Shown one piece after another: positions 158-63,806 of a DNA stretch of 64,000 bases. The DNA comes from Chondrilla cf. caribensis (taxonomy: Eukaryota; Porifera; Demospongiae; Chondrillida; Chondrillidae). Location: assembly GCA_964020155.1 (NCBI GenBank), contig OZ026557.1, positions 2,232,501 to 2,296,500 on the forward strand, read 5' to 3'. The notes beneath the pieces were generated by a model. The model made no database searches, was not told where the DNA came from, and saw only the letters and a program-made list of their open reading frames with translations. Made by a program: the position numbers and the translations under genes. The number at the start of each line of letters is the position of its first letter. Within the stretch, counting starts at the first letter, position 1.

Positions 158-3100
158 AGCGAATTTTCATCATCGCCATTAGATGGAAATTTCCAAAACA
201 CACATTTGGCATTTTTAACGGAAGACTGACATGACAAGAATAGAAAAGTATTTCACAGCTGTGGACAACGAAACAGAAGGCTCTTCATCAAATCAAGAGT
301 TCCAATACAGCACTAACCTCCATTGGGAATGTTATTTCAACTGGCTCATCCAATAGAGTCTGTGACTTGACATTAGTTATTCCAACCTGACTTGATACAA
401 TGGTCGATCCCAAGTGACAGTTATTCGTCCCTTCACAGCTGTGCTGCCTACTAATTATGAAATAAAAATTTTCAAAACATTTATTACGAGCACATTGTAC
501 TACATTTTACTATACAGTACTGAAATACTCATCTTGAATGAAATAAATGTTATTATATGTACATACTATATGTACATACTGTATTGTGGTTGTCTGTTAT
601 AATAGTAATAAAGCATACTATAGAATTGGATGTTATTCAATGCTGCACCTGCTTATATATAATATAATCATCTATGATTGACGATTAGATGAAGTGATTA
701 TTGGATTAGAGTTTTCCAGTTTTTTCCAATTCAGTGTGAAAGTATAAAATTAATGTACAATTCACAAAGTTATTACATATTATACATACTTCTCCACATC
801 TTGGGGTGTGGTCTGGTTTGTTTTATTCAGCCCTGTCTGTAGTAATTCTGACAGTCCATTGATTTGCATATTTACAACTTGAACAGCTGTGGGGAATAAC
901 CATTGCTGGTTTCACGGTATGCACAGGCCGAGACTATGAACAATATTGAGTGTACATGCATGTGTAGAATTATAATAATCTATATTAAATATAAATAATA
1001 AATAGTCAATTGAAAACGTACACACCTTTAATGGAACACATGCATCCACTAGCTGGAATCCTTGACGTGTATGTATGCATAATTGTAAAGTATTCATATT
1101 AAGTACTATGCACACTAATTACCCATTTACGAGGACACAAGGGATTATTGTGCAGTACATATTAGCAAATATATATAGCAAAGAGGCTGAATTTTCGAAA
1201 TTTTAGTTAAATTCAATCCACAAAATTGCTGACAAACTAAACCATAGATAAGCGCATTCCAAAAATCAAAATAGGTACTTATTTGAAATCATAATATTGG
1301 CAAGATATTTTGGACCAGGTCTATGACTACTTGAAAAAAAATAATTTTGGATGTTAGCTTATTTGGTATTGGCCTGCTTGAGAAGTGTAGCAGTGCCTTT
1401 GCTGTATGCCCATTATAATAATGACTAATAAATGAAATATTGGACATAAAATTAGCAACCTGAACTTACTTTGCATATAGAGATACACAATTATAATTAT
1501 TATACATACAGTACATTATAATAATGAGATATAATATTTCACTCATCCTGTACTCACAGTGCATACATTTACACAATTAATTCACAGACAAATAATCATT
1601 TGCTGAAACCCCTCAAGTGTACATGTTTATGTGAATGTACACACAGACATACTTTCTCCATCACTCCTTTCATTCAGTAATCCTTTAGGTATCCTTATTG
1701 ATGGCATTCGTGTTGTCTCTTGTTCTGCACTCTCGGTAAATACCAAGCCATTGGATAAAAATTCACTTTTCACTTCAAGAATACCACCAATTACCACTGT
1801 GGGTTCAATGAGTGGAACAATCAATACTTACATACATTACGAAGGTAATGCCACCACGTCTCACCAATGTTGTTCAGAGTCACATTGACTGTTTTGATTT
1901 CTCTGAAAGTGCTCACATTATTAGATGGGTGCTGTAAGTTATTTGTTATAGAAGAAGCTAATTTCTCCGAATTTTGAAGCAGGTTGGGTGCACCCTTGCT
2001 TCCCATCTATATACGTATATTTGAAGGGAAATAATACTATTATATGGAAAAAATATTATATTGACATTTCATCACCCACCGATTTTAATGAATCCCATGC
2101 CTGCATATGCTGTGAATCAAGAATATTGTCCACTAAGTTGAAGACTTCCTAAGATTTACATGTAGAATTCACATATAGAATAATTCACAATAATTGTATA
2201 GCTTGCAGTGTGCACATTCGTCTATCAATGGAGCTTATAATACATAACTCAAACCCTACCATTCCTTGCTGTCTGTCTTGCTTAAACAGGTCAGTCCTTA
2301 CAGAAGCTCTGTAGATTTCAAGATATACGGGTATCAGGATCATCAAGAAATCAGATTATTATACTAACTCAGATACAGTGTCCACATATGTGACAGCTGT
2401 CCCTAGATCTTTAGGGAATAGAGATTCCGAATAATCGACCAATCGTTTTGCCTCAGAAGTGAGAGAAGACGTTGTGGAGGTAAACAGAGCCACCTGATCT
2501 TCTTCCACAGGTTGAATACCTCCTTCAATCGCCACTGGCGTGTTCAAGGTGGACTCTCTCAATTCATTAATCTACGTATATGAATAAAATGATATTGCGT
2601 AACAGAAGTCGTAAACATTTCTTCTTCCGTAGAAAGCCAATAAAGATGAAGACATGCATGCGAACTAACACGATATTACTCTATTATCATTAGATTTCAT
2701 TTCTCATGCATACTTACAATAATTCTAGCTTCTCTGAATGCCTTGGATTCACATTCAGTCACATTAGCTTTTTCCCACATTCCACTGCTGTTACAGAACC
2801 TCTTGGCTAATCCAATATTGGATGCTATACACAAGTTTAAGAATTATATTTACATAATATGCATGCCAAAATAATTTGCTACAGTAGTGTTCTGTCTAGT
2901 TCAATGAATCTTGCATGCCGTTACACCTACAAAGGTCTGCACCAAATATCTCCTTGCCACACCCATATGCATAGCTACATGAGTTACAACATTGTTATCC
3001 CCATTCAATCCCATATGTTCAAATCATGCTAAGGGTCACCAATGCATTTGTCACGTGCACATGTTTCAAAATTTACCTGAGGTCGTCACCTATGTATATT

Positions 3101-3257
3101 GTTACACTCAGAGTGAGTTCATGGCCTGCCTACATACCTGTAGCAGTATCACTCTTTCTAGTACACCTCTGTATATTATAGTCACAAGGAGGAGTACTTG
3201 GCCAGAGAATGCCAGAGTCAGTCAAAGCCGGACAGTCACCAGTACTGGGTGAGGCAG
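158..3257 (-). CDS. Gene A third HRM domain, GAIN domain and first half of GPS
   Basis: Exons: 3138-3257 and 2718-2824 (a split HRM: CPALTDSG, LWPSTPPC, RFCNSSGMW, TECES), then GAIN exons 2369-2571, 2260-2308, 2080-2148, 1865-2006, 1653-1796, 790-886 and 318-447, and 158-225 (AKCVFWKFPS, first part of the GPS). The helical GAIN-A part is followed by beta-rich GAIN-B, as expected for adhesion GPCRs. The acceptor of the 1653-1796 exon is CACAG at 1797-1801, conserved in all three paralogs. The second GPS exon is off the left edge. Introns hold no recognisable genes. Confidence 0.8.
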
Positions 3258-6200
3258 CTAAACACAAAGATATTGATAACAAATAAACAATATGTACCAG
3301 TGAAAAGAATGTAATAATTTTATAATTACACAGCTATAGGACTCACCCACACAGCTTAAACTGTGTTTGTCTCCATCATACAAGGTGGGATTAACATCCT
3401 TTTGTGATAGTAAAAAAAATGATAATAAATAGCCATGTATTATAATAATTATTATTGATTGATAATTTACATGGATATCATAACTTGTCAATGGATTGCA
3501 AAAATACCTGAAAATCAGGAATGCCATCACCGTCTGTGTCCAATGAGCAGTGGTTTGCTCCTTCAACAACAATGTTAATGTATGGATCACTACACTGAGG
3601 ATTGTTATTGAAGAAATACAAAGACATATTATTCTTGTTGGACTGGAGTATGGCTTCCTCTGTGTGTACATGTATGTGTATATATGGCTTAGCATTGTTA
3701 ATACATTACCACTGTCCAAAATTGCATGTACCATATAGTGAATGTACTCACTCACCACACAGTGACTTGCTGACTCTGTACATTCACAGGGGGTGGAGCC
3801 GGGTCCAATGCACGAAGAAAAGACCTTATTCTCAATGGACAATTCATCATTAGGACAACGGCAGTATACTACAATGAGGCCAACAATATTAGTTAACAAT
3901 AGTATGGCATGTACTGAAGACTACAGTGAAAGTGGTTCCAATCCATGTCCAAAAGTAGATTCAGTTTTGTCTTGGTCTCTCTGTTATTAATGGTCAGCAT
4001 TCAAACTTAGCTCCATTCTTCCAAATTACAGGTACAAAGTGTAAATGTAATTAATTTGTTTTCATTACAATAATTTTAGAACATAATTACAGATGACTAT
4101 TAATATTCATTAATATGTTAAGAGGTAACTCACTTTTGAGTCACAACATACCTGATGGTTTGATTCCTAACACAACAGGAGGGTCTATGAAAACACCATC
4201 CCTGGTTGATTCCAGTGCACTGATTGCATCAACAGTGACATCTCTCTCTACATCCACTGAAAGCGAAATTGATGTTACACTTTCTGAAGTCGGGAAGTAC
4301 CTGATGACCCTGAATTCTCCAAGATTATAGGAACTAGCTGCATCTCTTAACTATTAAAATAAACATATCCATATCACTAAATACTATTATAATAATTGAT
4401 AATTTATTAAAATTAAACCTATGTATAAATTGATTTTTTTATCACCAAAATATCATAGTTAGATGGAATTTGATGAACTTAAAATCCATAGTGAACCAAA
4501 TATCTAGTACTTTAATACAACTAATTTAGTTTATTGCTATTACAAAAATTATATACGATAGAATAATGTGACTACTGTAGCTTCAATATTAGTCGCAGGT
4601 AGCTTTGGATATGTGAGGATCACATCTGGAAATGAGGCTACCTCGAATATCCAACAGCTTGAGACAGAGAGGTTTTTATTATAAAAACAGCATATTTGAT
4701 AATTACTTTCTGGTTGTATGCATTAGTAATATAGTAGCATTGTATACATCCTTTAATTTGTTTATTGATATAATTTGCATTTAGTTAGTACTGTTATAGC
4801 TTGACAAGCAATGACAAGATATAGTTTTAGTACAGTTAGAATTGTAACTAACTAAAATCATTAATTATCATCCTAACTGTTTGCCTATCTAACTAAATGC
4901 AAATTGTAGACTCAATGAAACCTCAAATTTTCAATTTGAAGCCATGTAGGACATATCGCTAACTAATAACAAATACCACACAGTAACTTTACCTTGCTAA
5001 AGAGATCATCTTCCACGTTCTTCAAAGCAATTACTGACAAAGTAACATTCACTTCAATAAGCAAAACACTTTGCTGAGTTGTACTCCCGAAGGTACATCC
5101 ATTAAAAGCAATGTCTCCCCAGTGACCATCAGTATTGCATCGTCTCCTAATTCTTGAGAAAGCACTGAGAAGAGGACTGAGATCTGAACAAGGATAGGAT
5201 ACTTCAAGACCGTGAGAAGTTCTTGGCCACTGGAACCCTCGGTCAAAACTAGGCAAACAGCAACCTTCACAAGGATCCTGATTGTGATGGAAATAGTTAT
5301 TTAATTATAATCCCTTATTACTCCTCATTAAGATTATAGACATTCATAAACAATTACATAATATACACATTTGCCTAAAGATATACATACTAATCAGATG
5401 TTAGTAATCAATTACTTGATAACACCTGACCAAGTATGATATAAATAATAACAATCAAGCATTAAATACATAAAATGCAAATGCAATTCTTAAGAATGCG
5501 ATGGAAACTCCAATGCATAATAGTTACAAATGCACCTGGATACACTCACTGGTGTTGAATTTGGTATCCCATCACCATCTGTGTCCAACCAACACAATCC
5601 TTCATTCTGCGTATACACCCCTGAACACTGAAATCAAGTGAATCAAAATGATATGGAAAATTATTGCAGTCAAAAGCAAGTGATTGTTTCACCCTCGCCA
5701 AACTCCTTTATGCCAGCCAACTGAACTATATACAACTTATTATTAATCATAAGTATTAAACATTATATGGGAACTTACAGAGCACGTTCCATTGATCTCA
5801 CATTTGCAAGGAGATCTCACATAGTATGGAGCATTACATACTTCCAGTGATAATAGAGCTCTGCTTGTAGAAGTGAATTTTGCGGGACATCTGCATTTAT
5901 CTTAAGTGAAAACAGAATATAATGTATGACTATCGAATCCAAAGCAGTGGACCAAGTGCAATGGCAGTAGAGCTTCAGTATGAGGGCAAGTAAACAATGC
6001 CATGGAGGAAGTTGTATACTGACTGACAGCTATATGTTGGAATTGAATTGAATATACCAGTAATTTCATGTATTGGAAGTCATTTTAGTGCATTTACCAT
6101 GAAATTTTCAATCATACTTGACACTATTAAAATGTAATACTGTGAATAGTGAGATCAGTAAAACAAACATTTGATAAAATTAATGATTTACCTGAAGGTA

Positions 6201-9200
6201 TAAGAAGGACTTTTTCATCTATATTGGCAGTGATCTTCATAGCACCATCATATGTTAGATGAAATATTTCAAGACTCATTAAATGGTTCCGTGCCCGTAA
6301 AGATAATGGAGATTCTAATTCAGCTACAATATGTACAAGTGTGGTGTCGTAATCCGTCAAGATTCTTTTATTGGATATAGTCAGGTTCTCAAATGGGGTT
6401 TGCAGTGCAGAATTCAGTTGGGACTGAATCTGAGAATATGAAAAATGCAATTACAATATTATGCATTATTTTTTGCTGATGCCAATTTGTCAATGGACTG
6501 CTACATATAGAATCCACAATTAGATAATAAGACAATTGAAATAAGTTAAATATACTTATTTTGCATAGTACCTGTTCTAGTAGTACAATGTTGTCATAGT
6601 TTGCAAGTGACTTGTTGAAAACAGCCGACAATATCAGAATCTCCTTTGTCCGAACATGAAATGTACAACTTGACAGATCTCCTTCCCATTGCTGATCCTC
6701 TGTACATGTCCACTTGATCCGTCCTTCTGGGTTGAAGCTGGCATGGATGCGAGAGCATGGAAGAGTCACACTATGACCAACACCTGACTCTGCCCTCAAA
6801 GGAGCTGCAGGGCAACCTGTAGACAATATATTAGGAGCTGCCAGTATCATGCAGACATTTGGAGACATCAGTTTGTCAAAGACTGGAGAGTACAATTAAT
6901 ATCATACCTGGTGTAAATGTCACATTGCTGCTAGAGGATATCAAAGGGTGATTCTGGAGGAAGCATTTGTAATCACCAGATAGGTGAGGGGAACCCCTCC
7001 TTATCTGCAATACACTAGAATTATCTACAGCAAACAAAGTGTAGTGTGAGCTAATTGATGATGGCTGAGATTCTAAAACTGTTCCATTTATACTCCATTT
7101 GACTGCAAAATTATGCAGATCAGCTCCATGGAAAGTACACGTCATGTTGACTGTACTACCAGGACCAGATATGATCCTTTCTGGTAGACTACTTATTGTC
7201 ACAATTTTTTTCAAAGGTATTTCATCTACAGAGTTTAGAGTGATATAAATTTTAGTGAAAATTACATGTATTCAGTAAACATCTAAAACAATAGAACATA
7301 TTACATAGTTACAGCATATCATATTACATGAACTGTAGATAAATTGTGATTCATGGCATGAGTGCTCTCACCATTGCAGGTTATACTGGCCAACCTAGGG
7401 CGTTCACATAGCCAATCGTAGTAATAAAAATTAGATGGTATTCCCCATCCATCATGAGGGCAGTTTAGAAGACTATCTTCATTGCCAGTACAATCTAAAC
7501 TCCCCAACCAGATCCTCCCTGTCCATGTTCCATATTTGGGACTGTTCGTAGCTCTGATTGCATTGGGAAAGCCGAGTTGTCTGCACACTACATGAGCGGC
7601 ATTCAAATCCCAGCCAATATAACAGATGGCTCCCCATGCTCCATTCAGTCCAACTAATACACGACCTTCACCAATGGAGTCTCCTTCACCTTTCTCCAGT
7701 TTAATATCAATATCAGTAACATTTCCTGTTAAACAAATAATAATATAATAATATTATGGCATTGTGTACTTAAAACCACTTTAATTATTTGATGATTACT
7801 TTTTTCAAGGATCTAAAAATGAATTTAATAGAAAAAATTGAATACCTTTCAAAATAAGTGTAATAATATCAATCTATGATATTGTGTAATTAAAATCACT
7901 TTAATTACTCAGAGACATTAATTTTATCAAACATATAACGGAGTCAATAGTACTAATGAAATTCAATGCCTATACATGCATATCTAATTGCAGAAGAGTG
8001 CCATATAGAAACTGATCAATAATACTAAAGGTATTATACCAAAAATGATATTTCGTTGTGTACGTGAATATCAGAATAATTTTGGCATACCATTTTGATT
8101 TCAGGTGGAATGTATGGTGTACAATACCTGGTGGGGATTAAACCTACAGACTTTGCATGGGGATGCTGGTAAGGCAGAGAGTGTTGAAACATGGAAAATG
8201 CATGGAAATAGCTCCCAAGTTGATAATAATATGGACTAGTTCGAACTGGTTTATGTAACTTCAGTTGATAGGGTTGGAACCTGTAGGAGGTGATAATATG
8301 AAACCAATACACTCTGTATGCACTCTACCATCCCCTGGCAATTACAGCTGCATCTTAATTACATTAATTAACCCATGATCAGAGCAATTATATATAGAGG
8401 GAAGGTCATGAAATTAGCACGTACAATAATAATTAGCATTACTTGGAATATTTCAACACTTGTATACAGTCAATGATCAAAATATTGTGTAACAAATGTA
8501 ACAAGCAGTTGGATATAATATTATACTAAGACTATGTTTCAAGCTTGCTTTGTTCTCTTTAATCAGTTCTATCAGTCCCTGTAGTAGTAAAGAGGAACTG
8601 ATAGTAACTGATGCATTTTACACCTTTTTCATCAGATTTTCAGACTACGTTTTGAAATTATTTTACATGCTGAAAATATGCCAAGTGCCATATTGTGATT
8701 GTATGAGGTAAACATCAACTTAAGTTATTTTTGCATATAAATGTCAAGGGTAAATATAATTCCATTAAAAATCTCACAATAATATGATTATATATAATTA
8801 TTTATTAAATATAATTTGCCTATATCACACAATGTTCAATGCACAATATCGGAATTTGATTATTGCATAATGGATACTTTTTCTCCCAAACAATTTTATA
8901 GTAAGTTTTGCTGACATGTATGGTACATATTGAATACAGAATATATAACCAAATGCCCACCTGTTTGACAGACCACCCCTGCATCTGATGAATGATGACA
9001 ACTATGCACACCCCAACCAGAGTGACTGCAATCCAACAGACTTTGCTCTTCTCCTTTGCAGGCAAACTTGGTAGCCCAGATACGACCAGTTCCTGCTGCG
9101 AATGATGCTGAACCTCTCACAGTTGCTGCAAGAGCTCCACTGTACCCAAGCTGTCGACATACAACTTCAGCATCATGAATATCCCAAGATTCATGACAAA

Positions 9201-12200
9201 CAGTTCCCCAAGCACCATTTAGACCCAATTCCACTCGTCCTTGAGATTCATCCTTACCACCAACCAAACGGATGTCTATTTTAGGTACAGTATCTGTATA
9301 TATGGAATTAAAGTAGCTATAAGGTACTCAAAGGGGGATTTTCAAGAACTAGTGTGTGATTTTTCTCAAATTATGTTTGAACCACATACTAAAGTTAATC
9401 ATTCAGATTATGAACAAGCATTAAATTAATTCTAATAGTCAAGATGAATGCTCAATTACATAACATTATTATTCAAGACCACAAATCCGATTGAATACAA
9501 AGTTCACTGATGATAATTCACACAAGCATTGATTACCTGTACATACAACACCTGCGGGTGTATTTGATCCACAGCTCGTTCCCCAGCCTGACAAAGGGCA
9601 GTCAATTATTGTCAACTCATTACCTCTACAATTCACATCTGTTATCCAATATCTGTTTGCAAGACTGCGTCCGAAGGCGTTACCTCCAGTTGCAGCTAGG
9701 GCGTACTGATAACCCAACATTCTGCAGACCACCCCAGCTTCAGACTCGTCCCAGTTAGTTGAACAAACCCTTCCCCAAGTACCATTGAACCCTATTTCCA
9801 CAAATCCATATGATACATCGTTACCCCCAACCAAGCGAATCTCTGGTGCATAGCTTGGTCCTGTGAGCAAAGTGAAAAGTTCTAATTAAACTCAATGCAA
9901 AAACATTTTACACTAACCTGAGATATTCTATATTCAGCACTTAATTAATCCTTAAATCTATAATTAAGGCCTAGAAAATAACATTGCCACTTTTTGATGT
10001 TCAGCACATTAGCATACACCGTCTAATGATTGATGGGCCTATTAATACAGGGGCACAAAATTACAAGACACACCTAAGCAAATCACTCCAGAACGGTTAC
10101 CGGGACTACATGGTACATTCCAACCAGAATTAACACAATCGAGTATAGTTTTCTCTTCTCCAATGCAATTGACAGAGCTTAACCAAGAACGATGTACTCC
10201 AAGACCAAAAGTTGAGCTGAAGGTTGGGAGTCCTCTTTCAAAACCCAACATTTTGCACAAAACGGTAGCATCTTCATAGCTCCAGTCTGCATGGCAAATG
10301 CCACCCCAAAATTGCCTTTCAAAACCAATCTCTACTTGTCCATTGGAAAAACCATTTCCCCCCACAAGACGAATAGATGGTTTATCTATTGAAGTGAGAA
10401 GAACACTGTAATAGCTAAAATTAAAAATCTTAAATGCTATACCATTGACATTAATGTCCATTATAATATTATTTACCATAGTAAGCATACAGCATGCATG
10501 TTATTGACAAGTGGAAGAACATAATATATATTTCACTATGCACCTGTACAAACCACTCCCACATCTTCTGCATGGTTGAGGCAGGATCCACTAGCTGATG
10601 GTATACCAATGGTACAGTCTTCAATTTTGGTTTCTTCTCCCCTGCAGTTCACTACATTACCCCACACAGTTCCAACACCCTTACCAAATGCTGAGTCGAT
10701 TGTAACAACCAAGGCCTTGTCATATCCCAGCTGCCTACATACCACATGTGCATTATGAATATCCCAATTGGCATCACACACAGTGCCCCAGACTCCATGA
10801 AAGCTGATCTCTACACGTCCAAACATGTTAGAAACACCATCGACCAAGCGAACTTGTATAGTCTCATTATGTTCTATAAAAAATGTAGATCTAATGTAAG
10901 TTGTTATTAAAGAATTTTGACTAACATAACAGAATTTTTTCATTGGCTTAATGTTGTTTCTGCGTCATTTCAACTTTAATTTATATTAATTTACAAAGTG
11001 ATTGAGGACTTATCATTTTTTGGAAATGTTCAATCTTCTTGCTGGTCAAAATGGGGTTCAAGTCAATGCCAGTGGTCGCAGAGTCTATGAATAAGTTTTT
11101 ATAAGGCTGCAAAATTTAAGTGTGATACTATGCTGTTGTTGATTCACTGATCAAATATAGCTATATGATTTTCTGGATCAAGCAGAGTTAGTAGGTTATT
11201 TACTCGAGATCCATAATGTTTAGTACAAACAAAATTACTGTTAATTGCAATGTCATTAATTCATCTTATGAATACCTAGCTGTGGCTCAATAAAATACCA
11301 AAAAAGGCAAACCAATTAGAAAAAAAAAACAGTAATGAATTTTCAATTTGGAAATTCCAGTGAATGTTAAAGAGGATATCACAGGATAGGCTTCAAAATA
11401 TCAGAATTACTCACTTCCACAGAAAATGCCTCTATCAGTGCTGTGGCTGCAACTTGTCAGTCCCCATCCACTATTATGACAATCACCAATGTTCAGTTCA
11501 TCTCCCCTGCAGTCCATCCCATCCAGCCATATTCTCCCAGTTCCTACACTAAAATATGGATAACTAGCCACAAGAAATGCCTTTCCATAGCCTAGCTGTC
11601 TACACATGACAGTGGCATCACGAATATCAATGTTGGTCCCACAAACTGTACCCCAAACTCCATTTAATCCAATCTCAATCCTTCCATATGACTGATCTAC
11701 ACCTCCAACCAGGCGAACATTACTGTGGTCGTTCAATTCTGTGTGGATTAGACAAATGTATATAAAATAATTCATCGATAGCATTAACGAAGGTACTATT
11801 GAAATTTACAATTATAGCATTACTAAATAAACAGGCATATAACACACACTGCTGCTACTGTTTTTGTGAAAACCAAACCTTCGTACCTCCACATATCACA
11901 CCAGCCTCTGTACTGTGAGAACAAGAGGAACTGTACACTCCCCATCCAGAGTGTGAACACAAGCCAATGTGTTCTTCTGTACCACTACAACCAACATTGT
12001 CGAGCCACATTCTACCTATTCCACGTGTAAAGCTACTTCTCAGAGTTGCAGCAACAGCTGTTGGATACCCCAGCATACGACACACTACATGAGCATCATG
12101 GATGTCCCAATTATTATCACAGATAGTTCCCCAAGCTCTACCAACACCAATCTCAACACGTCCATGTGACTGATTAACACCTCCTCTCAGGCGGACTTCA

Positions 12201-15200
12201 ACCTGCATGGTCTCTGTTTGTCATATGAGTGAGTGATATAAATACATCTATTATGCAAGCCAATAACTGAAAGTCAGGTAGATACAAACCTACCTCCACA
12301 AAGCACACCAGCCTCTCTACTGTGAGAACAAGAGGAACTGTATACTCCCCATCTCAAATGTGAACACAAGCCAATGTGTTCTTCCGTACCAGTACAGCCA
12401 ACATTGTCAAGCCACATTCTACCTATTCCACGTGTAAAGCTACTTCTCAGAGTTGCAGCAACAGCAGTAGGATACCCTAACATACGACACACTACACGAG
12501 CATCATGGATGTCCCAATTGTTATCACATACAGTTCCCCAAGCTCCATCAAGACCAAACTCAACACGTCCATGTGACTTATTAACCCCTCCTCTCAAGCG
12601 GACTTCAACCTGCATGGTCTCTGTTTGTTGTAGGTATACAAAAATAGTGATGGGAATACATCTCTAAGGCAAGCCAATAACTAAAGACCATTTCAACACA
12701 AACCTACCTCCACAAAACACACCAGCATCTCTATTGTGTGAACAACTTGAACTGTACACTCCCCATCCACTGTGTAAACATTTGTCAAGGCTCTCTTCTG
12801 TACCAGTACAAGCAACATTATCTAACCAAATTCGACCCGTTCCATGTGAGAAGCTACTTCTTAGAGTTGCAGCTACAGCTGTGGGATACCCCAACATACG
12901 ACACACTACCAAAGCATCTTGGATGTCCCAGTAGTTATCACAGATTGTTCCCCAAGTGTTGTTGAAGCCAATTTCAACTCTACCACCTCTTCCAGTGAGT
13001 CCACCAACCAGTCTAATAGTCATGTTATTATGTCCATCATCTATTAGTTGAATTATAATGAAGTATGTTATTATAGAATATGTTATAATTTTTAGGTCTA
13101 ATAAGTTACAAGTATCTGAACTAATTCTCCACCAATACTATAGCTCTTTTTTAGGTTCTAACTAATTCAGAATAACCCACACCATTATATGGCAATCCAT
13201 AAAATATTATAGGTTTCTATAGAATATAACTCAATCAACTGAACAGCAAACATTCAATGTAACTGCAGAATCATTTACTATGTTACCTGGAAATCCAGGT
13301 TTTTAATTCACTTCAATACCAATTTTACACAGACAGTATATACAAGGATATAGAAGGCTATAATAATACCTCGATGATAGGATCCATGTGCAACTAGTAA
13401 TCAAAGTACTCACCATCACACACAACACCTGCTAGACCACAAGAGGATGATGAAGTAGAACCCCAGAGATCATGTGGACAATTCTTTAAACTATTCTCTT
13501 CTCCAAAACAGCGGACATTCCTTAGCCAAATTCTGTTGGTGGGACCACTCCAAAAAGCAGACCCAACAGTAGCAATGATAGCTCCTTGGTATCCAAGTTG
13601 ACGACAAACTACAGCAGCATCATGTATGTCCCAATTGGTGCCACACACATATCCCCAGGCACCTCTGAAGCCAACTTGCACCTGACCTGTTCCGTTATTA
13701 GCTCCTCCAACTAATCTTAGATCAATATCATCATCTTGATTCACTGATAAAAATGTAGGTGGAAATCAGTGTAATGTGACATTTTGAGTCATAAAAATTG
13801 ATTCATTATTACTACACAAAATTTTAATATTTGAATTCCAACTGTTGTAGCTGGAATACATTTTGTACACATGTAGCAGTTAATATAACTAATGGTGCCT
13901 GTTTCAAAGTAATCAACATTATATTTGGATTTAATTGGTTATATATCAAAAATTACATGATAGTTATTATGGCATATCTATTATGCATCTCATCTCCACA
14001 ATGTTTATACTGTTATGAATATGTTCTACAGCTATATATATAGCTAGCATTATTGTGTGAGAACAGAGCTAATGCATTTAATTTCATTATTATTAATAAT
14101 ATTATTTTAAGTATAAATGTTGTGTGTGAATCAGGCATGTATGCTAGTGATTGAAGAGCCAGTAACCTGAAAAAAGGTTTACCTGAAAACATTTTTGTTA
14201 GGTAAACATCTGTGGTGATTTTCATTGACAACTAACAATGTAATATTATGTATTGGACTTTGAAAGAAATTTCCACTAAATTTAATGTGACATTTTATAT
14301 TTTACATTCCATCACAATTGGCAAACTTGGCAATATGTTGAAATATCTACAGTATAATGTTGTGTGACTTATGGATGTTAAAGGGGAGCTGAGGTAGATC
14401 AAGATCAGCCAACATACATTCCAAATTGACAACCATTATATTTTGGCTGGCAAAAGAGTTCATGAATGGTTGTCAATTGAACCAGAATTGGTGGCTAGAT
14501 ATGTGATATGATTGGAGTAGAGCTACCAATCTCTGTGCATCTGTTGGTAATAAAATACATGACCATCACCAGGTGATAATATTCCACTATCACTGATGGA
14601 TTTGATGAATTGCATGCACCACCATGCGTGATGTGCGTTTACCACCAAACATTCATTTGATTGAATTCAACTCCAAAATTCCACCACAAAGCCAATTTTT
14701 TTAAATGATGAAATTGCAAATTGAGCCAAAAGGTGCTTGCAGACCTAATAGAACCACCTAAGTGATTAGAGTGCGGGTAGTGCAGGCTTTTAACTTTAGT
14801 TGGCGTATTACATGAAAATGTAGATATAGTTATGTTGAATAGTACTTAGTCTATTAGCAGCTAACAATTAATACGAGCAACTTCTGTTTTATATATTCTG
14901 CATGATTCCGTGTAATAGCAATCACATGGCAATTACAGTCTATGTGTTGGGTTGGTGTATTGAGTAAATGAATTCACAAATTGGCACATTTCATAGTACA
15001 GTGTACAGAAATCGAATTTATACATGTATGACACTCGAAAGGTTGAAAATAATATAATTATTATGATCAAACATATGTATTCTAAGCATTTTTTACCTAA
15101 ATTTGCAAAATAAGAAAGTAAATGGGAAATTCTTCATCACCTTTGTACCCACATATGCAAATAATATATCACCCTTTTCACATGGACAGTCAGAATCATA

Positions 15201-16341
15201 GCATTTAGCACATAAACATGTTCTGAAATATGTCACGAAATTCTGCTTTAACAGTCCTCAAATATTAATTTTTTTACGGTTTTGCAATGACTTAAATATG
15301 TACACTGCTTTGAAACAGTAAACACACAATTCTTGGGTATGCAAAAGAAACAAATTTGGGGAGTTGGCAATGTCCCCAATTTTGGGACATTATTACAGAC
15401 ACAAAATAAGCAACGTTCATGCAAGATCAGAACATTCTCTGGGAATATGTGGAACCCAAGCTAACTTTGTTCATAAACAGGTTTTTATTCAGGTAGCTAG
15501 CAACTAGAATTTATTCAAAACATGTCTCTGAGTCAACATAAATATTACCTCACTAAATTTCGGCTGTTTCAAGGGATTATGTGGGTTAATGCCCTGAGAA
15601 TTGGTATAAACAGGTATGTTAATTGTTGGAACCTGATAGATGTAATGAGACAGCGCTAGCTGAATATTCAGGTTGAGCCTTGATCAGAATTTAACCATCT
15701 AGTTCAGAACATGTTGTATAGTACTGTTATACCAGTCTGTATCATAATGTTCTGAATTTTCTAAGTTGTAAATTAAATAAACTTAACAGGATTTGAAAAG
15801 CTAAAATTCCCATGTACTCTCACCTGCACATACAACACCTGCAATTCCCTGGTATGGAGGATGAGATAAATGCTGCGTGCAATTTTCATTCACCCGTCCC
15901 CATGAACTCCTTGGACACTCGGTGATCCGGTTCTCTACCCCACTACACCGCACATCGTCCAACCATATACGCCCTGATCCTCTTCCAAAACTGGACTGGA
16001 CTGTAGCAGCAAGTGCTTTAGTAAATCCCAACTGACGACAAACAACCGTGGCGTCTCTGAAGTCCCATCCTCTGCCACAAACAGTACCCCAGGGACTTGT
16101 TGTATTGAGTCTCACTTCCACATTACCTTGGGCATTGGATCCTCCGTTAACCAAACGAATCAAGGCAGTATAATTAACTTGAAGATGTAAAAGAATTAAA
16201 GTGACAAGTCATAACGCAGAGAGAGTCAGTCGGGATTGGGATGAGAGAGAGCTTACCACTACATTGGCAATTCAGTTGTTGAGATTCCACACACTGCAAC
16301 AGTGCAATGAAGAGCACTCCAAAAAAGAGCATCGCAGGCAT
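158..16341 (-). CDS. Gene A: SRCR-Ig-HRM/TSP3-GAIN adhesion GPCR (3' part cut by window edge)
   Basis: First of three tandem paralogous receptors, read right to left from the ATG at 16341. I infer 32 exons from GT/AG borders and phase continuity, totalling 6,599 nt (about 2,199 residues) inside the window. Order: signal peptide, eleven SRCR domains, one Ig domain, two HRM/TSP3 modules, a third HRM domain, and GAIN up to the first half of the GPS. The exon with the cleavage site and all 7TM exons lie left of position 1, judging from gene B, where they are intact. All exons are open and every phase matches the next, so it looks functional. As an adhesion-type GPCR it should sit in the plasma membrane with a very large extracellular region; the ligand is unknown. 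It differs from gene B by one extra SRCR exon. The family is secure; the exact exon ends are inferred by eye. Confidence 0.85.
3347..6816 (-). CDS. Gene A duplicated HRM-like / TSP3 module block
   Basis: Nine exons. Module 1 is 6572-6816 (HRM-like: GCPAAP, LPCS, IKWTC, SSCTF), 6192-6429 (linker, ends IPSG), 5779-5900 (Cys-rich, KCRCP) and 5550-5627 (DTDGDGIPN). Module 2 is 4993-5277 (HRM-like: QWPRTSHG, YPCS, RRRCNTDGHW, NGCTF), 4152-4350 (linker, ends KPSG), 3756-3868 (YCRCP), 3508-3594 (DTDGDGIPDFQ) and a small 52-nt exon, 3347-3398. DTDGDGIP is the calcium-binding core typical of thrombospondin type 3 repeats. Exon order and phases repeat between modules, indicating block duplication. The linker exons resemble no family I can name with confidence. 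Confidence 0.75.
6908..7225 (-). CDS. Gene A immunoglobulin-like domain exon
   Basis: This 318-nt exon, phase 1 to 1, encodes one Ig-fold domain. The first Cys is in VNMTCTF, the core Trp in FAVKWSING, and the second Cys in the classic SGDYKCFLQ block (D-x-Y-x-C type). A proline-glycine linker (FTPG) follows. This is the only Ig domain in the receptor, placed between the SRCR array and the membrane-proximal HRM modules. Confidence 0.8.
7372..7725 (-). CDS. Gene A SRCR domain 11 exon
   Basis: The last SRCR before the Ig domain (354 nt, phase 1 to 1). It begins with a NVTDIDIKLEKGEG linker and contains GRVLVGLNGAWG, HVVCRQLGF, GRIWLGSLDC and a terminal TCNG. In gene A the usual DAHVVC reads NAAHVVC; in gene B the same spot is NDAHVVC. 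It lies directly upstream of the Ig exon. Confidence 0.85.
8961..11738 (-). CDS. Gene A SRCR domains 6-10
   Basis: Five one-domain exons, each phase 1 to 1: 11415-11738 (324 nt), 10544-10873 (330), 10074-10385 (312), 9537-9860 (324) and 8961-9293 (333). Each holds the LVGG or LVDG start, a WG-x-x-C block, a VVC or VLC (R/K)-x-LG block, an aromatic WL- or WITDV-type block and the closing VxC. The 10074-10385 domain is the most divergent and shortest (WGGIC, VLCKMLGF). Introns of about 150-540 bp contain nothing else I can recognise. Confidence 0.85.
11887..13040 (-). CDS. Gene A SRCR domains 3-5: recently multiplied exon cluster
   Basis: Three consecutive SRCR exons: 12708-13040 (333 nt), 12294-12620 (327 nt) and 11887-12213 (327 nt), all phase 1 to 1 and separated by introns of only about 80-90 bp. 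The three share the block CRMLGYPTAVAATLRSSF and nearly the same flanks. Exons 4 and 5 are almost identical and both begin TMQVEVRLRGG, so one arose by a recent exon duplication. Gene B has only one exon of the 4/5 type (41820-42161), making this the site of the copy-number difference between paralogs. Confidence 0.85.
13414..13743 (-). CDS. Gene A SRCR domain 2 exon
   Basis: This 330-nt exon, phase 1 to 1, encodes a complete SRCR domain preceded by an acidic linker (NQDDDID). Key blocks are LRLVGG, WGYVC, AVVCRQLGY, RIWLRNVRC and GVVC. The counterpart in gene B is 42984-43313. Confidence 0.85.
15215..15715. mobile_element. MITE copy in intron 2 of gene A
   Basis: Ends are near-inverted: AACATGTTCTGAA at the left and TTCAGAACATGTT at the right. 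The inside (for example around 15340-15480) matches, in opposite orientation, the clean element nested in the LINE at 54530-55016. A counterpart sits at the same place in gene B (44580-45059), so the insertion is older than the gene duplication. The left flank CATA and right flank GTAT are no longer identical, as expected for an old copy. Confidence 0.65.
15824..16177 (-). CDS. Gene A SRCR domain 1 exon
   Basis: A single exon (354 nt, phase 1 to 1) encodes one SRCR domain starting IRLVNGG. The WGTVC, VVCRQLGF and GRIWLDDVRC blocks and the final GVVC are visible. Six cysteines indicate the group A pattern. It is separated from SRCR2 by the longest intron of the gene (13744-15823), which carries a MITE. 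The domain has an insert between its last two cysteines, so it is longer than the other SRCRs. Confidence 0.85.
16257..16341 (-). CDS. Gene A exon 1: start codon and signal peptide
   Basis: The exon is 85 nt, ends in phase 1 and has a GTAAGC donor. It opens MPAMLFFGVLFIALLQ, a typical hydrophobic signal peptide, followed by a short Cys-containing stretch (NCQCS). The start is chosen because the upstream frame in gene A has no ATG, the equivalent ATG is conserved in gene B at 45659, and a TATA box lies about 60 bp upstream. Confidence 0.8.
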
Positions 16342-25922: not shown

Positions 25923-45659
<19,737 letters not shown>

Positions 45660-51200: not shown

Positions 51201-51251
<51 letters not shown>

Positions 51252-52730: not shown

Positions 52731-53058
52731 GATAGTGTTGGAGATAGAAATGAGTCTTTGGGTGATGAAAACTCTATGAACAGGATAATCTGGACCTATC
52801 CAAACAATAATGAGGAAGAACAACTGCAACCTAAATTGAAGAATTTGGAAAATAGGTTAGGAAATAACATGGGTGCTATTAACATTGATGAAATGTATGA
52901 GGAGTTTTGTGGGTCTGTTTTTGAGTGCTTGGAACACAAGCCAATTAAGCCAATTAGCAAAAGAAGGTTGAGGAAGAGTAAACCTTGGTTTAATAGAGAT
53001 TTGTGGAGGTTGAGGAAAGAATTCCATGGTGCGGAAAGAAAATGGCTAAAAGGGAAAA

Positions 53059-55016: not shown

Positions 55017-55020
55017 TATG

Positions 55021-55852: not shown

Positions 55853-55955
55853 GTACTAAATAACTTTTGGAATCTTTTTATTTAGTGCTATTTTGGACAA
55901 CTGTCCTACTGTAACTTTGGACAACTGTCCTACTGTAACAATGCACTTTAATAAC

Positions 55956-55986
<31 letters not shown>

Positions 55987-56521: not shown

Positions 56522-59500
56522 CTTTGCTATGTTTGAAATAGGGAAGAATTGTGTAGTTACTGTAAATGTACATGAACACGTAGGAACTGTTACATATATA
56601 ATTGCAGTAAAAACAGGAAGTCAGCCACACTATATCCAACTATATGTGTTATATACAAAGTGTTGAGGAACATACAGGGATTATCCATAATGAATTGGGG
56701 AATATCACATGAAAAATAAATGATTTTGGAAGGACAAAATATGTGCCCTATAATCATGATTATCTTTTGGATACAACACTTAAGCTTTCATATAATACAC
56801 TCATATATTATGATTAATGTGCCTAGTAGCAGTGAAACTAATGATATTTCTAAGAAGTTCCAATTCAGCTGATTCAGAAGCTTTATATATCACCAGAAGG
56901 TGTACTCCATCAATGCTAAGTAATACTTTTGATGATATGCATACTTACTTTCATTGTGTGAGGTTTTCTTTTCTTTTGGCAGAGTTGAAGATAAAATCAA
57001 CGTTGATTCTCCAGATGCCTTTATGATCAATAAAACATTCAACATTAATAATTTATAATAAACTCAGTCAAGCTTGTACATGAGGGAGAGTCTCCAAAGA
57101 GAATTATGTAATAATATGCATGTGTATATTTCATAGACATTCTACAACTACATGTGGTGGTATATTGTTATAAAGCTAATCAATGTCTTAGGCAGACACA
57201 ATCATTCTTATGATAATGAAGTGTTTGACCTTTTTCTATGTTTACTAATAATAAATAATAACCAACTCCAATAATAATGATAAGATATGACACCTGACCA
57301 TAATAATTATTCCCTCAATGGAGTGGTTGTGGGATATGCAAGCCTAACTGTTCAGACTAGAGTTTGCACTCGGTCGGACTGCCAAACCAAATCCATATAT
57401 ATATATAGGATTCTTGTACATTAAATTATATATTGAAGGATATTTGAGCAAAGTATACATCTGCCTGAAAAATGAACAACCTGATGGTATGTTGTGTGGC
57501 GATGAGTACTAACCTTAGTATAGGCAGCATCAATATCAGAGCTCTGCTTTGCCTTACGTCTTTTAGTGTGATAAAAGTTCTTGAATTTGGCACGAAACTC
57601 ATCATGTCTTACAACAAGACATATGAAGATAAACACACCCTACATATGCATATACACAAAACATAATACACAATGAATGATTATATGTTATGTACGTAGA
57701 AAGGAGAAAAAATAAATATAATATATCATTCACATTATTATATTACATTATATTACATATTATAATAGGACTATAGTATATCGTAGATAATCAATTTTAC
57801 ACTATGCAAAATTAAATTACGATGGATCCTTTTATATGTGTACAGTACCTGCTATTACAAGGTGCAGAGGTCAAGCTAACATGCTGGTTCAATAAGTGTA
57901 TTGTGATTTCGAAAAGATAAAGTTAGTACAATACTTTACAGACCCATTTCTGAGCATTGTAGAGCACAGGCAAGACACACATATGGCTATGCATGAACGT
58001 ACAAATATTCTCATCACCTGCAATGTGTTCAGGATGAGAAAAGCCCAAGCGAAGACAGAGGTGATGGGGTTAACAGCCAGGAGTCCGAAGATCCATGTCA
58101 ATCCAGTGAGAGGGAGAAGTACCACAACAGATTTCACAAGTTGCCTAGGATTTAATATTGCAAAGCAGCAAATTCAAATTCAGTGCCATTAGAGTAGTTG
58201 TAAACAATATGACCACAGTGTATCCATTATGCTATGGGTGACTCACATAGCTTTGATAGCATTTGTTTTCATATCACTGTCAGCATTATCTGTACTCTGC
58301 AAACGTCTACTCACATATATCTTCCTCAAAGCAATTACTATTATAACTGCATTTGCCTGGGTAATATAATATAATCAAAAGTACAGTCAAAATAGCTCAT
58401 TTCTATTGTACTGAGTGGTACAGTAAGCTTTTGTGAAGTCCTTCAGGTAATGAAACATGTATAAACTTGGAGTTGCATATCATTATACATGTATGGAAGA
58501 CTCACCAGTATAACAAAAAGCATTGGAGCTATAAAGGCAGCAATTACACCATCTTCTATTGGAAGCCAACACCTGTAATTATTGAAGCCAAATTAAAGTT
58601 TGGGCATTGAAGAAGAGAATATGCTCAATTCAGAAATGCTGATATGAATATTATACATTGACATACACTCTAATCTTGTGGTAATCTGGAGTGCCTTTGT
58701 CATATGAAGCAGGTATCCGATACAAATTATGCTTAGCAGCAACAGAAATGGCTGCTGTTATGGCAGGTAGAACTGTACATGTGAAAGATTAAACAATGTC
58801 AAGCGCAATGCAACACAGGATACACAGCCACTTACACGAAGATGTGTAAAGCTATACACAACTATACTCTATGCACAGACACAACCGTAATCAAACACAC
58901 AAACACACACACACACACACGCACGCACACACACACACACACACACACACAAACATGCACATCCATACACACACACATAAACACACACATACACATGCCC
59001 ACAAAAACACATGCATACACATTCACACATATTATATATGTACAGGTACACACTAGTGTTACTCACTCCAGCCAGTGATAGAGTAATACAACAACCACTT
59101 TCTCTTGTTGATATGAAATACAATGACAGTCATTCGAAAGATGTGAATTCCTTCACACAACATCCAGAAGAATAGAGACAAGAAGAAGTAGTGAAGGAGA
59201 GTTGTCACCAGTTTACAACCAATCTGAAATGAAAAGGAAACAATTTACATTCATGAAGGCATAGAACTGGTTGTTGTCACTGTACAAGCATATTATTGTT
59301 AACTAAGTTGTGCAATGCTGCATTGATACACAAGGGTCTACCATACAATTCCTACTTCTAAATTTGTTTTTTGAAATAAAACAATAAAGTCCTGTTGCCA
59401 TTTCTAAACTCACCAGTGATGATGCAGCTGTTTGACTACCAACAAGAAATATGACCAACCCAAAGGTCAAAGCTAAACACAAGTTCAAGTGGACAAAGTT

Positions 59501-62500
59501 CCCAATTTGTGTTATTAGTTGTTTCCTGTGAGTAAAAATGCAGATGGATCACTCTGGTTCTCTTGTGAGTTCATGTCACTGATCATGAGTTCATGCATAT
59601 TACAGAAATTATTATAAAGATTATGCATATAATGCTATAATTAAAATATATACAATGTACAATAATAATTTTGAAGCAGATAGAATTGGAGTTTGTATTA
59701 ATTAAAATACATTCAGAAATTAGCAGATTAAAATGTATTAAAAATTGGATTGGTGAGCGGATGGAGACAAGTCACCATGGCAACCATGAAGTCCCGCCAA
59801 CCACCAAAGCCTTGCCATGGTGATTCCATTTAATCAAGACCTGGGTAGTCCAACTATAATACAAACTTACCTTAAACTGATGAAGTAGACAATAGTGAGA
59901 ACCAGGGCAAACAGAGATATGGAGCATCCAATGTATGTTGCAATGGAAAGGGCGAGAAGGTGCTCAGGAGAATATTGCTGCAACAAGATGAAATGTAATT
60001 ATTTTCAATGTGTAATTTGTATGTATAGGTTACAAATGTATATGCATTGATTAAATGTACACATTAATTTCTATAAATTGTTAGAGTGTATTCTTACATT
60101 ATTAGTTGACGATGTATAATATTGCATGTGATGTGACATGTAATGTGTATGTACGTCATAGTATTGGCACAAAACTTACATTTGTTGATCCAGAAACATC
60201 CACTAGGACTGCAAAACTCGTCAGGTGTGTACTCTTACATACAACAGTATCCTTCTCAATGACAGTGGTTAGCCCTTCATCAGACCATTGTCCGGTGCTA
60301 TATAAAGGATACATATCAATGTACCATGATGTATTGAAGATCAATGTAGTACATTAGCTTGTGCATGCTTGTAATTATAATGATCAAAATCAAATTGTCA
60401 ATGATCTGTCACACTGTAATAAACCTGTAGCACACTGCAAGCCTATACTACTCACAGTGAATTTTCATCATCGTCAGATGGAAATTTCCAAAACACACAT
60501 TCGGCATTTTTAACTGAAGACTATTATGACAAGAATAGAAATATATTTTACAGTCGTGGGCAGAGGGAAGGCTCTTCATCAAATCAAGAGTTCCAATAAA
60601 GCACTAACCTCCATTGGGAATGTTATTTCAACTGGCTCATCCAATAGAGTCTGTGACTTGACATTAGTTGATCCAACCTGACTTGATAAAATGGTTGATC
60701 CTAAGTGACAGTTATCCATTCCTTCACAGCTGTGCTGCCTACAAATTATGAAATAAATATTGTAAAAATATTTATCTATGATAAACACATTGTACCAGAT
60801 ACTACTATATAAACGTAGTACTGAAATACTCATATTGTGATCATTATTTGTAAATGGTATTATATGTATGTATCATGTATTATATCAATACAATACAAAT
60901 GTATTGTGGTTGTCTATTATAACAGTATTAATATAAGTATAATATAGGTTTGGAGTTTTTTAGGTTTTCCAAATCAGTGACAGAGTATAAATACACCATA
61001 CACATAGATACATATGCATACTTACTTCTCCACAACTTGGAGTGTGGTCTGGTTTGTTTTATTCAGCCCCGTCTGTAGCAATTCTGACAGTCCATAGATT
61101 TGCATATTTACAACTTGAACAGCTGTGGGGAATAACCATTGGTGGTTTCACAGTATGTATTCAGGACCAGGCCTAAGACAACGCATAAGTATAATAATTT
61201 ATATACATATTAGTCAATTGAGAACATGCCCATGTGCTCACTAAACCAATGGAATCCTTGGTATATACATAGGAATGTGTAATTATGCAATAGTTCCAAA
61301 TACCTACCCATTTACGAGGGCAAAGGGGTTATTGTACAGTACGTATTAATGAATATAAAATAATAACAAAGAGGTTGAATTTTCGAGATTTCAGTTGGAT
61401 TCAATCCACAACAATTGCTGGCAAAACCAACCATAGATAAGCACATTCCAAAACTCAAAATAGGTACTTATTTGATATCGTAATTTGGTCTATGGCTACT
61501 TGAAAAAGGAATATATTTTTGTGTGTTAGCTTATTTGGTATTGGCCCACTTGAGAGATATGGCAGTGTCTTTGCAGTATGCTCACATAATTATAATAATA
61601 TAATATACATATAAATTAAATACTAGGCATAAAATTAGCAATTGCAGTCTGAACTAAGACTTATATAAACAGAGATACACACAATCCCATTTTATACACA
61701 TAGGTGTAGGAAGCAATTTTGTAGTGGGGGTGCTGGAACATGTGACCACATGCACATTGTATATACACGTAGTATGTGGGGCGTACATAACTTTTGACAC
61801 ATGTGCACACAGTACTAGTAGTAACTGTAGATATATGCATGATCATGAACAATAATTCAGCTTACAATATTATACAGATATGCATTTGTATGTACAAATC
61901 ATTCACACAAATGAAAAACAAATCATTAGTTATTTCATACTACCAAAATAGTGTTGTTATCTTTCATTGACAGAAATTAATGAAGAAGCTATTTCGCATA
62001 GATTCAAAACATCTAATCTAGATTTGTAAGTGTTAAGTAATAAGATATGATTCAGCCTGTCTGCATTCACTTTCTTTGCAACAAAATTAATTCAACAAAC
62101 TCTGGCAACTAACACTAGAACGTTTGGCAGCCATTTAAACTTAAAATCATGGCATCTAATCACATGACTTCATAATTTAAATGGCATCTACCAGTGCCAA
62201 TAATTTAGTTTTTCATTTTTTGCTTCCTTTGGTTACTTGTCAAGTTGAGAAGGTAATTATTAGCAGCAGATATTGGAGAATATATTGTTACTGTTGTGGA
62301 ATGTGGTTCTTTGATTTAGAAAAAAAAGAAATCGACTCGAGCTGAGCCTGATGCTTTAGTTAAGCCTTTCTCCTTTTTTAAACTACAACTTCAAAATGTG
62401 GGGGTGCTAGCACCCCCAGCACCCCTGGTTCCTATGCCTATGCTGCAGTACAATTTTAATAACGAGAAATATTATTTCATTTATCCTGTACTCACAGGTA

Positions 62501-63806
62501 TGTTCATGCATTTACCCAATGTATACACTGACAAAATTAGAATTTACAGACAAATGATCATTTGATAAAACCCATCAAGCATACATGTGTATGTGAAAGT
62601 ACACACAGACAAACTTTCTCTGTCACTCCTTTCGTTCAGCAATCCTTTAGGTATCCTTATTGATGGCATTCGTGTTGTCTTTTGTCTTGCACTCCCGGTA
62701 AATACCAAGCCATTGGATAAAAAATCACTTTTTACTTCAAGAATACCACCATTTACCACTGTGAGATCAATTAATGGAACAATCAACAATTACACAAATT
62801 ACAAATCCATGGATTGTCACCATGTCTCACCAATGTTATTCAGAGTCACATTGACTGTTTTGGTTTCTCTGAAAATGCTCACATTATTGGATTGGTGTAA
62901 GTTATTTGTTATAGAGAAAGCCAATTTCTCTGAATTTTGAAGCAGGTTGGGTGCACCCTTGCTTCCCATCTATATGCATATTATTTGAAAGGAATAATGT
63001 TATAGTAGTCAAAAGGAAAAGTTAATATATCGACATTTTATCACCCACTGATTTTAATGAATTCCATGCCTGCATATGTTGCGAATCAAGAATATTGTCC
63101 ACTAAGTTGAAGACTTCCTATGATTTACATGTAGAATTCACATATTGTAGAATAAGTCACAATGATTATAATAGCTTGTAGAGTACTCATTTGTCTACTA
63201 ATGGAGCATATATTGCATAATTTAAACCTTACCATTCCTTGCTGTCTGTCTTGCTTAATAAGGTCAGTCCTTACGGAAGCTCTGTAGATTACAAAATATA
63301 TGGGTACGTATCATGATCATCAAGAAATCAGATTTTTATACGAACTCAGATACAGTGTCCACATATGTGACAGCTGTCCCTAGATCTTTAGGGAACAGAG
63401 ATTCCGAATTATCGGCCAATCGTTTTGCTTCGGAAGTGAGAGAAGACGTTGTGGATGTAAACAGTGCCACCTGATCTTCTTCCACAGGTTGGATGCCTCC
63501 TTCAATCGCCACTGGCGTGTTCAAGGTAGATTCTCTCAATTCAACAATCTACATAATATATGAATATTAGATGATATTACATAACGGTATTGGACATATC
63601 TTCTTCCATACAAAGCCAATAAAGATGAAGACATATTATCTCGAACTATCACGTGTGGTCACTCTATTATCATTAGACTATTTTCTGATACATACTTACA
63701 ATTACTCGAGCTTCTCTGAATGTCTTGGATTCACAGTCAGTCACATTAGCCATTTCCCACATTCCACTGCTGTTACAGAACCTCTTGGCTAATCCTATAT
63801 TGAATG
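56384..63806 (-). CDS. Gene C: 3' part of a third paralogous adhesion GPCR
   Basis: Nineteen exons inferred, 2,171 nt (about 723 residues), covering the second half of the third HRM domain, GAIN, GPS, 7TM and tail. The 5' exons (SRCR, Ig and HRM/TSP3 modules by analogy) lie beyond 64000. Every exon is open, and phases agree with gene B. Lengths are identical except for one codon missing in each of 62831-62969 and 60456-60520. It is probably functional. Whether its ectodomain matches A and B cannot be seen here. Confidence 0.85.
57514..59977 (-). CDS. Gene C seven-transmembrane domain
   Basis: Exons 59871-59977, 59414-59525, 59067-59223, 58667-58772, 58506-58572, 58247-58356, 58018-58144 and 57514-57639. 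Lengths equal those of gene B exon by exon (107, 112, 157, 106, 67, 110, 127 and 126 nt). TM6 carries LTGLTWIFGLLAVNP and TM7 starts FLILNTLQ. Strong conservation across the core suggests the same G-protein coupling as gene B, which is inferred. Confidence 0.88.
58901..59015. repeat. Interrupted (CA)n microsatellite in the TM3-TM4 intron of gene C
   Basis: Shorter, interrupted counterpart of the tract at 28423-28528, in the same intron. Confidence 0.9.
60180..63806 (-). CDS. Gene C HRM end, GAIN domain and GPS
   Basis: Exons: 63700-63806 (RFCNSSGMW, HRM end), GAIN 63346-63548, 63233-63281, 63049-63117, 62831-62969, 62615-62758, 61026-61122 and 60609-60738, then GPS 60456-60520 and 60180-60297 (GQWSDEG, VVCKSTHLTSFAVLVD). 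The cleavage motif HLT-S is intact. The second and fourth GPS cysteines are missing, as in gene B. The 62615-62758 exon uses a GTTTGT donor where A and B have GTATGT or GTATGTC. Its downstream intron carries the insertion at 61701-62440. Confidence 0.85.
61701..62440. mobile_element. About 740-bp TIR insertion in a GAIN intron of gene C
   Basis: The intron between 61122 and 62615 is about 1.5 kb, against about 0.75 kb in genes A and B. The extra block starts TAGGTGTAGGAAGCA with GGGGGTGCTGG close behind. It ends with the inverse, reading TAGGCATAGGAACC and GGGGGTGCT on the minus strand. No ORF. It is a non-autonomous DNA element, family unknown, inserted after the duplication. Confidence 0.6.

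Follow-up and report, generated by a model that had tools for sequence, protein, structure and literature searches.

An eight-copy tandem array of predicted SRCR-bearing adhesion G-protein-coupled receptor genes in the sponge Chondrilla cf. caribensis

What does a locus encode in which exons for SRCR domains run on, head to tail, into exons for an adhesion G-protein-coupled receptor (GPCR)? The question arises in a 64-kb stretch of the genome of the sponge Chondrilla cf. caribensis (C12:2232501-2296500, hereafter the window; the genome is 137 Mb in 37 contigs), where an earlier note, made from the letters alone, had proposed giant chimeric receptors. We built exon models for the genes in the window and counted their copies in the 200 kb around it (of which 6.5 kb is N). 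The locus is an array of eight copies of one gene. Its predicted product has, in order, a signal-peptide-like start, 9-11 SRCR domains, an Ig domain, two HRM/TSP3-like modules, a further HRM, GAIN/GPS and a class-B seven-transmembrane region (7TM).

The copies, U1-U8, lie head to tail on a single contig over about 211 kb (C12:2123855-2334620), with a start-to-start spacing of 24.9-30.8 kb. All three genes in the window are on the minus strand: gene B (U3) is the only complete one, gene A (U4) is mostly contained and gene C (U2) is present by its 3' end only. The earlier note had described three head-to-tail paralogs with a period of 29-30 kb and asked for further copies to be sought beside them. 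The head-to-tail order stands, while the number becomes eight and the spacing varies as given above. The outer coordinates given there, 158 and 63806, match exactly the end of gene A exon E31 and the start of gene C exon E23. A comparison of the Ig-to-7TM part of gene B with its own genome gave 56 matches, none of them outside the array (best 36 of 337 candidates scored). On C12, about 3 kb 5' of U7 (reverse-complement position 196359), there is also a frameshifted remnant of an SRCR1-like (E2-like) exon, a trace of a further partial copy.

Exons were located with a splice-aware finder that scores codon-by-codon conservation between copies, followed by one curated exon set, fixed by the number of copies keeping an exon open with AG/GT borders. 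Seven copies are readable from E1 to E41, giving 2,336-2,602 amino acids (aa) with no internal stops. U4 stays open as far as E31 (2,199 aa), and its last exons would fall in 5 kb of unreadable sequence beside the window. In gene B, 40 exons were curated (2,406 aa), with no internal stop and no fault in splice sites or phase. With its altered SRCR exon E5 (114 codons) it reaches 41 exons and about 2,500 aa, the two figures that had been predicted for it. Borders were shifted for splice sites or phase at E19 and E30 of U1, E33 of U2, U6 and U8, E1 and E29 of U5, and E30 of U7, and nowhere in U3. The first ATG of U5 is its third codon.

Five pieces of gene B from outside the SRCR array were compared with Pfam. 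Matches above cut-off were Ig_3, ig, I-set, HRM (in module 2 and before GAIN), GAIN, GPS and 7tm_2, so that gene B has the domains of an adhesion GPCR (scores in Table 1). TSP_3 reached 14.6 bits, below its Pfam cut-off of 25. The HRM of module 1 had no Pfam match and scored 20.7 bits against a typed HRM consensus. Of the domains proposed earlier downstream of the SRCR array, Pfam thus bears out the Ig, the module-2 and third HRM, GAIN, GPS and 7TM; TSP3 and the first HRM stay below cut-off. The two modules align with each other by profile (hhalign probability 99%, with module 1 represented only by the database proteins P0001 and P0002, described below). Their middle region may have a SEA-like fold, which is only a reading of its strand/helix pattern.

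SRCR identity was taken from Pfam PF00530 for the best 150 of 662 candidates scored, and from a typed consensus for the remainder. All 79 curated SRCR exons have six cysteines, in a count that excludes the damaged or altered E5 of U1, U3 and U7. Group A SRCR domains have six cysteines, and the mammalian group A domain is split over two exons. The domains here are group A-like in their cysteines and lack the two-exon split: each curated SRCR is a single phase 1-1 exon (in the fixed exon set; E5 was searched for as such), so it can be gained or lost without breaking the frame. Gene A has 11 SRCR domains and gene B nine intact and one altered, in line with the 10-11 per gene first proposed; across the array, 9-11 intact domains were curated per copy. 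The copies differ at the E5 slot, between E4 (SRCR3) and E6. Two intact SRCR exons occupy it in U2, U4 and U5, and one in U8. U6 has none, its E4 being fused with half of E5; in U7 the exon is frameshifted; and U1 has an open SRCR there that lacks a phase-1 acceptor by the finder's rule. The exon of gene B carries a 7-bp insertion that alters the end of the domain, and its donor is shifted, which restores the frame at E6.

Two explanations would undo the model at its base. One is that the model wrongly joins separate genes or transcripts, one for the SRCR/Ig part and one for the GAIN/7TM part; this reading draws on the SRCR domains before the last one, which are linked to the rest solely by splice phase and conservation. 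It conflicts with P0001 (JGI, 1,428 aa, 5'-truncated), an intron-free open reading frame (ORF) on a 4,846-bp contig. P0001 is 58.5% identical to gene B over 1,388 aa, from inside E11 (the last SRCR) to within E40, and the alignment is poor in its C-terminal tail of 68 residues. Since gene B is interrupted by 29 introns between E11 and E40, P0001 is most likely derived from RNA. It places the last SRCR, the Ig, both modules, HRM, GAIN, GPS and 7TM in one frame, which argues that these parts belong to one polypeptide, as the earlier note had assumed, as far as P0001 reaches. The phases of gene B match from E1 to E41, and its signal-peptide-like start precedes SRCR1 (none was searched for further down). 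We regard wrongly joined genes as very improbable; a chimeric polypeptide encoded in tandem array is supported by open exons with matching phases and by the P0001 frame. The other explanation, that the array is an assembly artefact or that the majority of its copies are dying duplicates, we give almost no credence. It can point to the defects at E5 of U3, U7 and U1 and to the E2-like remnant. Aligned positions of the units are only 62-84% identical in pairwise comparison, which speaks against a single locus assembled in duplicate; the copies also have different numbers of SRCR domains and introns of different length. E5 aside, the exons read in every copy are free of internal stops. The ratio of nonsynonymous to synonymous change (dN/dS) is also well below 1: among the six close copies its pairwise mean is 0.21-0.54 in every domain tested, and 0.22-0.46 when U1 and U5 are added. 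Every domain tested is under purifying selection.

If the parts form one receptor, how might it work? The GPS of all seven copies with sequence at this point reads HLT and continues as TSFAVLVD (HL/TSFAVLVD), which corresponds to the H-X-S/T motif and a tethered-agonist sequence. The best PDB match of the 7TM with its tethered-agonist region is ADGRD1 (E 2.6e-42), and the tethered-agonist regions of the two align. What the sequence shows is the architecture and number of the copies, the pattern of selection, the turnover of SRCR exons and the GPS motif; ligand binding, cleavage, G-protein coupling and the recognition role are inferred. The eight copies are probably a family of recognition receptors that signal via the GAIN-tethered agonist, with a common output and differing outer faces. 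The outer half (9-11 SRCR and Ig) would bind a surface or soluble ligand, and the Ig and HRM/TSP3-like modules would form a stalk leading to GAIN, which would cut itself at HL/T. Ligand binding or pull could then shift the outer fragment and free the tethered agonist TSFAVLVD..., which would activate the class-B 7TM and a G protein. Between copies, the signalling half would stay nearly constant while phase 1-1 SRCR exons are gained, lost, fused or changed near their ends. The outcome would be a small receptor set in which varied faces share one output. Sorting microbes or self is a task for which SRCR domains are often named, and here they would be wired to a signalling receptor. The eight copies have diverged while their signalling half hardly changes, and they allow a direct test in which the output is the same and the outer domains vary.

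Variation among the copies was compared along the protein. Among the six close copies, dN/dS is highest in SRCR1 (0.54), SRCR7 (0.52) and SRCR11 (0.50), and is 0.25 in 7TM and 0.23 in HRM3. For the seven copies without U5, the most variable 20-codon segment is the end of SRCR1, with proportions of amino-acid (pN) and silent (pS) differences of 0.277 and 0.232; the protein mean pN is 0.060, and shuffling the SRCR codons 2,000 times never produced a value as high as that of SRCR1. Next comes the Tyr-rich, length-variable end of SRCR11 (pN 0.151, pS 0.150). We also counted distinct codons in eight SRCR exons as extra amino-acid or silent states and compared them by Fisher's test. Between cysteines 4 and 6 the amino-acid:silent ratio is 156:70, against 325:301 in the rest (p 8e-6), and without U5 it is 115:39 against 235:198 (p 1e-5). 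Cysteines 4-5 alone give 91:34 (p 2e-5), and cysteines 5-6 alone 65:36 (p 0.024, or 0.094 without SRCR1). Common ancestry of the copies makes these p values approximate. The amino-acid excess near SRCR ends is genuine for these copies and is suggestive of changing contact surfaces, and relaxed constraint would fit it too. Trees from different partitions of the gene differ in topology, a hint of gene conversion; with low support at several points and a long branch for U5, we make no claim from them.

A number of these and other observations tell against a cleaved recognition receptor. At the GPS, the Gly-Cys typical of the site reads Gly-Leu, and the cysteine next to HLT, its likely partner, is absent as well. 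The Gly-Cys disulfide is present in most adhesion GPCRs (PMC13062082) and is not an absolute requirement of the family; by eye, both cysteines are also missing in the database proteins P0001, P0002, P0012 and P0015, so their loss looks like a trait of this receptor group. According to the same source, the autoproteolysis motif alone is insufficient, with a Phe and a Gly named as further determinants, and ADGRB2 is not cleaved despite its HLS motif (PMC13062082); the motif is thus no proof of cleavage. The array retains CVFW and also the Gly that is left of the Gly-Cys; the identity of this Phe with the named determinant comes from alignment by eye. As to selection, no domain tested has a dN/dS above 1 as whole-domain positive selection would give, and SRCR2 (0.26) and SRCR3 (0.21) are as constrained as 7TM. 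With all eight copies, the SRCR1 segment still ranks first, with pN (0.322) below pS (0.332), and the second is on the GAIN side at E29; pN exceeds pS in only nine of 2,219 segments, and in 102 of 2,205 with seven copies. When each exon is compared separately, the stretch between cysteines 4 and 6 has p <0.05 in four of eight, uncorrected (SRCR1 0.018). Challenge experiments in other sponges are mixed. On microbial-pattern challenge, Aplysina aerophoba raises one SRCR gene and one adhesion GPCR, and Dysidea avara lowers GPCR genes on the same kind of challenge (PMC6208332); among the lipopolysaccharide-regulated genes of Halichondria panicea in the available text of PMC8242945 there is no GPCR.

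An alternative that takes up several of these points is that the receptors sense force and adhesion, between cells or between cell and matrix, much as a signalling version of the SRCR-rich aggregation receptor of sponges might do, with the copies providing dosage or tissue use and the SRCR ends merely relaxed. Purifying selection in all domains tested suits this. So does the rate of change in the SRCR loops, which is about the silent rate and not above it, as relaxed constraint would also produce. Scavenger-receptor genes of Amphimedon, some of them in tandem arrays, moreover rise in the adult (PMC3447736). Adhesion GPCRs also feature in the literature as mechanosensors. It fits less well with amino-acid variation that is concentrated near SRCR ends, together with a variable SRCR number, instead of even change, and the Pfam comparison of five gene B pieces from outside the SRCR array gave no short consensus repeat. 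On balance we consider adhesion or force sensing possible but unlikely. A recognition role draws modest support from the variation near SRCR ends and from the Aplysina study, and remains the reading we prefer. A wider version of it, which we offer as doubtful speculation, is an early-animal multigene recognition system in which SRCR faces are renewed by exon exchange over one conserved G-protein output. It might serve to tell microbes, symbionts or other individuals apart, with copy or loop content varying between individuals; sponges lack bona fide Toll-like receptors in the account given in PMC6208332. The positions of the predicted parts are collected in Table 1.

Table 1. Predicted genes and their parts, in window coordinates
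Feature	Position	Strand	Basis
Gene B (U3), complete	26309..45659	-	Conserved-exon models
Gene B E1, signal-peptide-like N terminus	45575..45659	-	In 7 of 8 models, in U5 after shifted donor; signal peptide by eye
Gene B SRCR array, E2-E4, E5 (altered), E6-E11	37294..45495	-	phmmer with typed consensus; PF00530 above cut-off at window 38866 and 42247
Gene B E5, altered SRCR	41820..42161	-	Alignment with three other E5 copies; models
Gene B E12, Ig	36830..37147	-	Pfam Ig_3 34.8 bits, ig 32 bits
Gene B module 1 (E13-E16): HRM-like, middle region, Cys-rich, one TSP3-like loop	35442..36735	-	Typed HRM consensus; profile match to module 2
Gene B module 2 (E17-E21): HRM, middle region, Cys-rich, one TSP3-like loop	33247..35146	-	Pfam HRM 31.3 bits
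Gene B third HRM (E22-E23)	32575..33156	-	Pfam HRM 30.2 bits
Gene B GAIN and GPS (E24-E32), CVFW...CKSTHL/TSFAVLVD	29828..32432	-	Pfam GAIN 40.1 bits (cut-off 26.5), GPS 48.2 bits (cut-off 22.5)
Gene B class-B 7TM (E33-E40)	27037..29633	-	Pfam 7tm_2 163 bits (cut-off 20.6)
Gene B last exon E41, stop position uncertain	26309..26551	-	Exon models
Gene A (U4) E1-E31, 11 SRCR; later exons beyond window	158..16341	-	Models; PF00530 above cut-off at window 8965
Gene A tandem SRCR exons E4, E5b, E5a	11884..12956	-	TRF period 407 bp, 85% matches; self-alignment
Gene C (U2) E23-E41; remainder beyond window, to 76484 in window numbering	56890..63806	-	Models

Between genes B and C, window 51250-55880 on the plus strand holds a broken retrotransposon of the non-long-terminal-repeat type, recognized by eye. 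Its frames are endonuclease-like and reverse-transcriptase-like (YADD), with a C-terminal Cys/His motif, and it coincides with a strong G skew. A repeat is shared by window 15211-15715, 44576-45025 and 54530-55020; it has the same orientation in the E2-E3 introns of genes A and B and is inverted inside the retrotransposon.

Related domains are clustered elsewhere in the genome. C22:1062052-1079685 (plus strand) carries an uninterrupted frame of 5,987 aa with tandem HRM repeats 162 bp apart and room for about 109 of them (best 150 of 310 candidates scored). Read in the flanks, a Ser/Thr-rich stretch precedes the repeats and a GPS-like CVFW...CSHLTTF follows. HRM arrays are also present in adjoining frames of 3,234 and 3,275 aa, with GPS matches between them and no 7tm_2 match on C22, and a literature search for the tandem-HRM frame gave no match. 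Other large clusters of SRCR exons lie at C6:3.31-3.43 Mb, C16:0.64-0.68 and 3.63-3.68 Mb, C10:0.525-0.552 Mb and C2:6.29-6.38 Mb (among the best 150 of 662 SRCR candidates). At C9:4548830-4641016 (minus strand), 12 7tm_2 matches are clustered, 11 of which cover nearly the whole 7TM in one open frame.

How does the array compare with known receptors? Two adhesion GPCRs of Amphimedon queenslandica, Aq712029 and Aq715659, were published in 2014 as carrying multiple SRCR repeats; HRM occurs in at least eight Amphimedon adhesion GPCRs, and Ig domains appear in a figure legend of the same paper (PMC4302439). SRCR domains are also reported in adhesion GPCRs of amphioxus (PMC2246102), so the kind was already known. 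In the open-licence literature we found SRCR-bearing adhesion GPCRs for Amphimedon and amphioxus only, and no array of them. Two Amphimedon database proteins are 36-37% identical to the array in GAIN-7TM and have no SRCR among their listed domains. PF00530 and 7tm_2 occur together in three of 120 matches listed (160 found), namely P0001, one from Halichondria and one from Dysidea, and in one of 58 in a further protein search, a crinoid protein (P0151). The Halichondria panicea protein (LOC135335369, P0012; 1,726 aa) and the Dysidea avara protein (P0015; 1,933 aa) likewise join SRCR to GAIN, GPS and 7tm_2, at about 30% identity in GAIN-7TM; the former mixes SRCR with sushi and fn3 domains, and the latter has Ig. 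P0151 resembles the array in having SRCR in an adhesion GPCR; it is 726 aa long, has no HRM listed and is 30% identical over 70% of the GAIN-7TM query. The sponge aggregation receptor of Geodia is likewise an SRCR-rich membrane receptor; it differs in its short consensus repeats, and the available text of PMC4557014 describes no 7TM. In the five gene B pieces from outside the SRCR array, Pfam gave no sushi or short consensus repeats.

Closest in architecture is P0001, whose domains follow the order of gene B: last SRCR, Ig, two HRM/TSP3-like modules, HRM, GAIN, GPS and 7TM. It lacks its start, with any earlier SRCR domains, and has a longer and different C-terminal tail. It was the only protein returned by a database search with the Ig-to-module-2 part, which missed P0002 and is therefore of limited sensitivity. 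P0002 (JGI, 2,595 aa) shares the core of Ig, twin modules, HRM, GAIN, GPS and 7TM with gene B (33.7% identity over 1,410 aa), and its outer part consists of Calx-beta, fn3 and Ig in place of SRCR. What looks new here is the combination of the architecture and its array of eight copies. A common core of twin HRM/TSP3-like modules, HRM, GAIN and 7TM carries different heads: SRCR in Chondrilla, and Calx-beta, fn3 and Ig in P0002.

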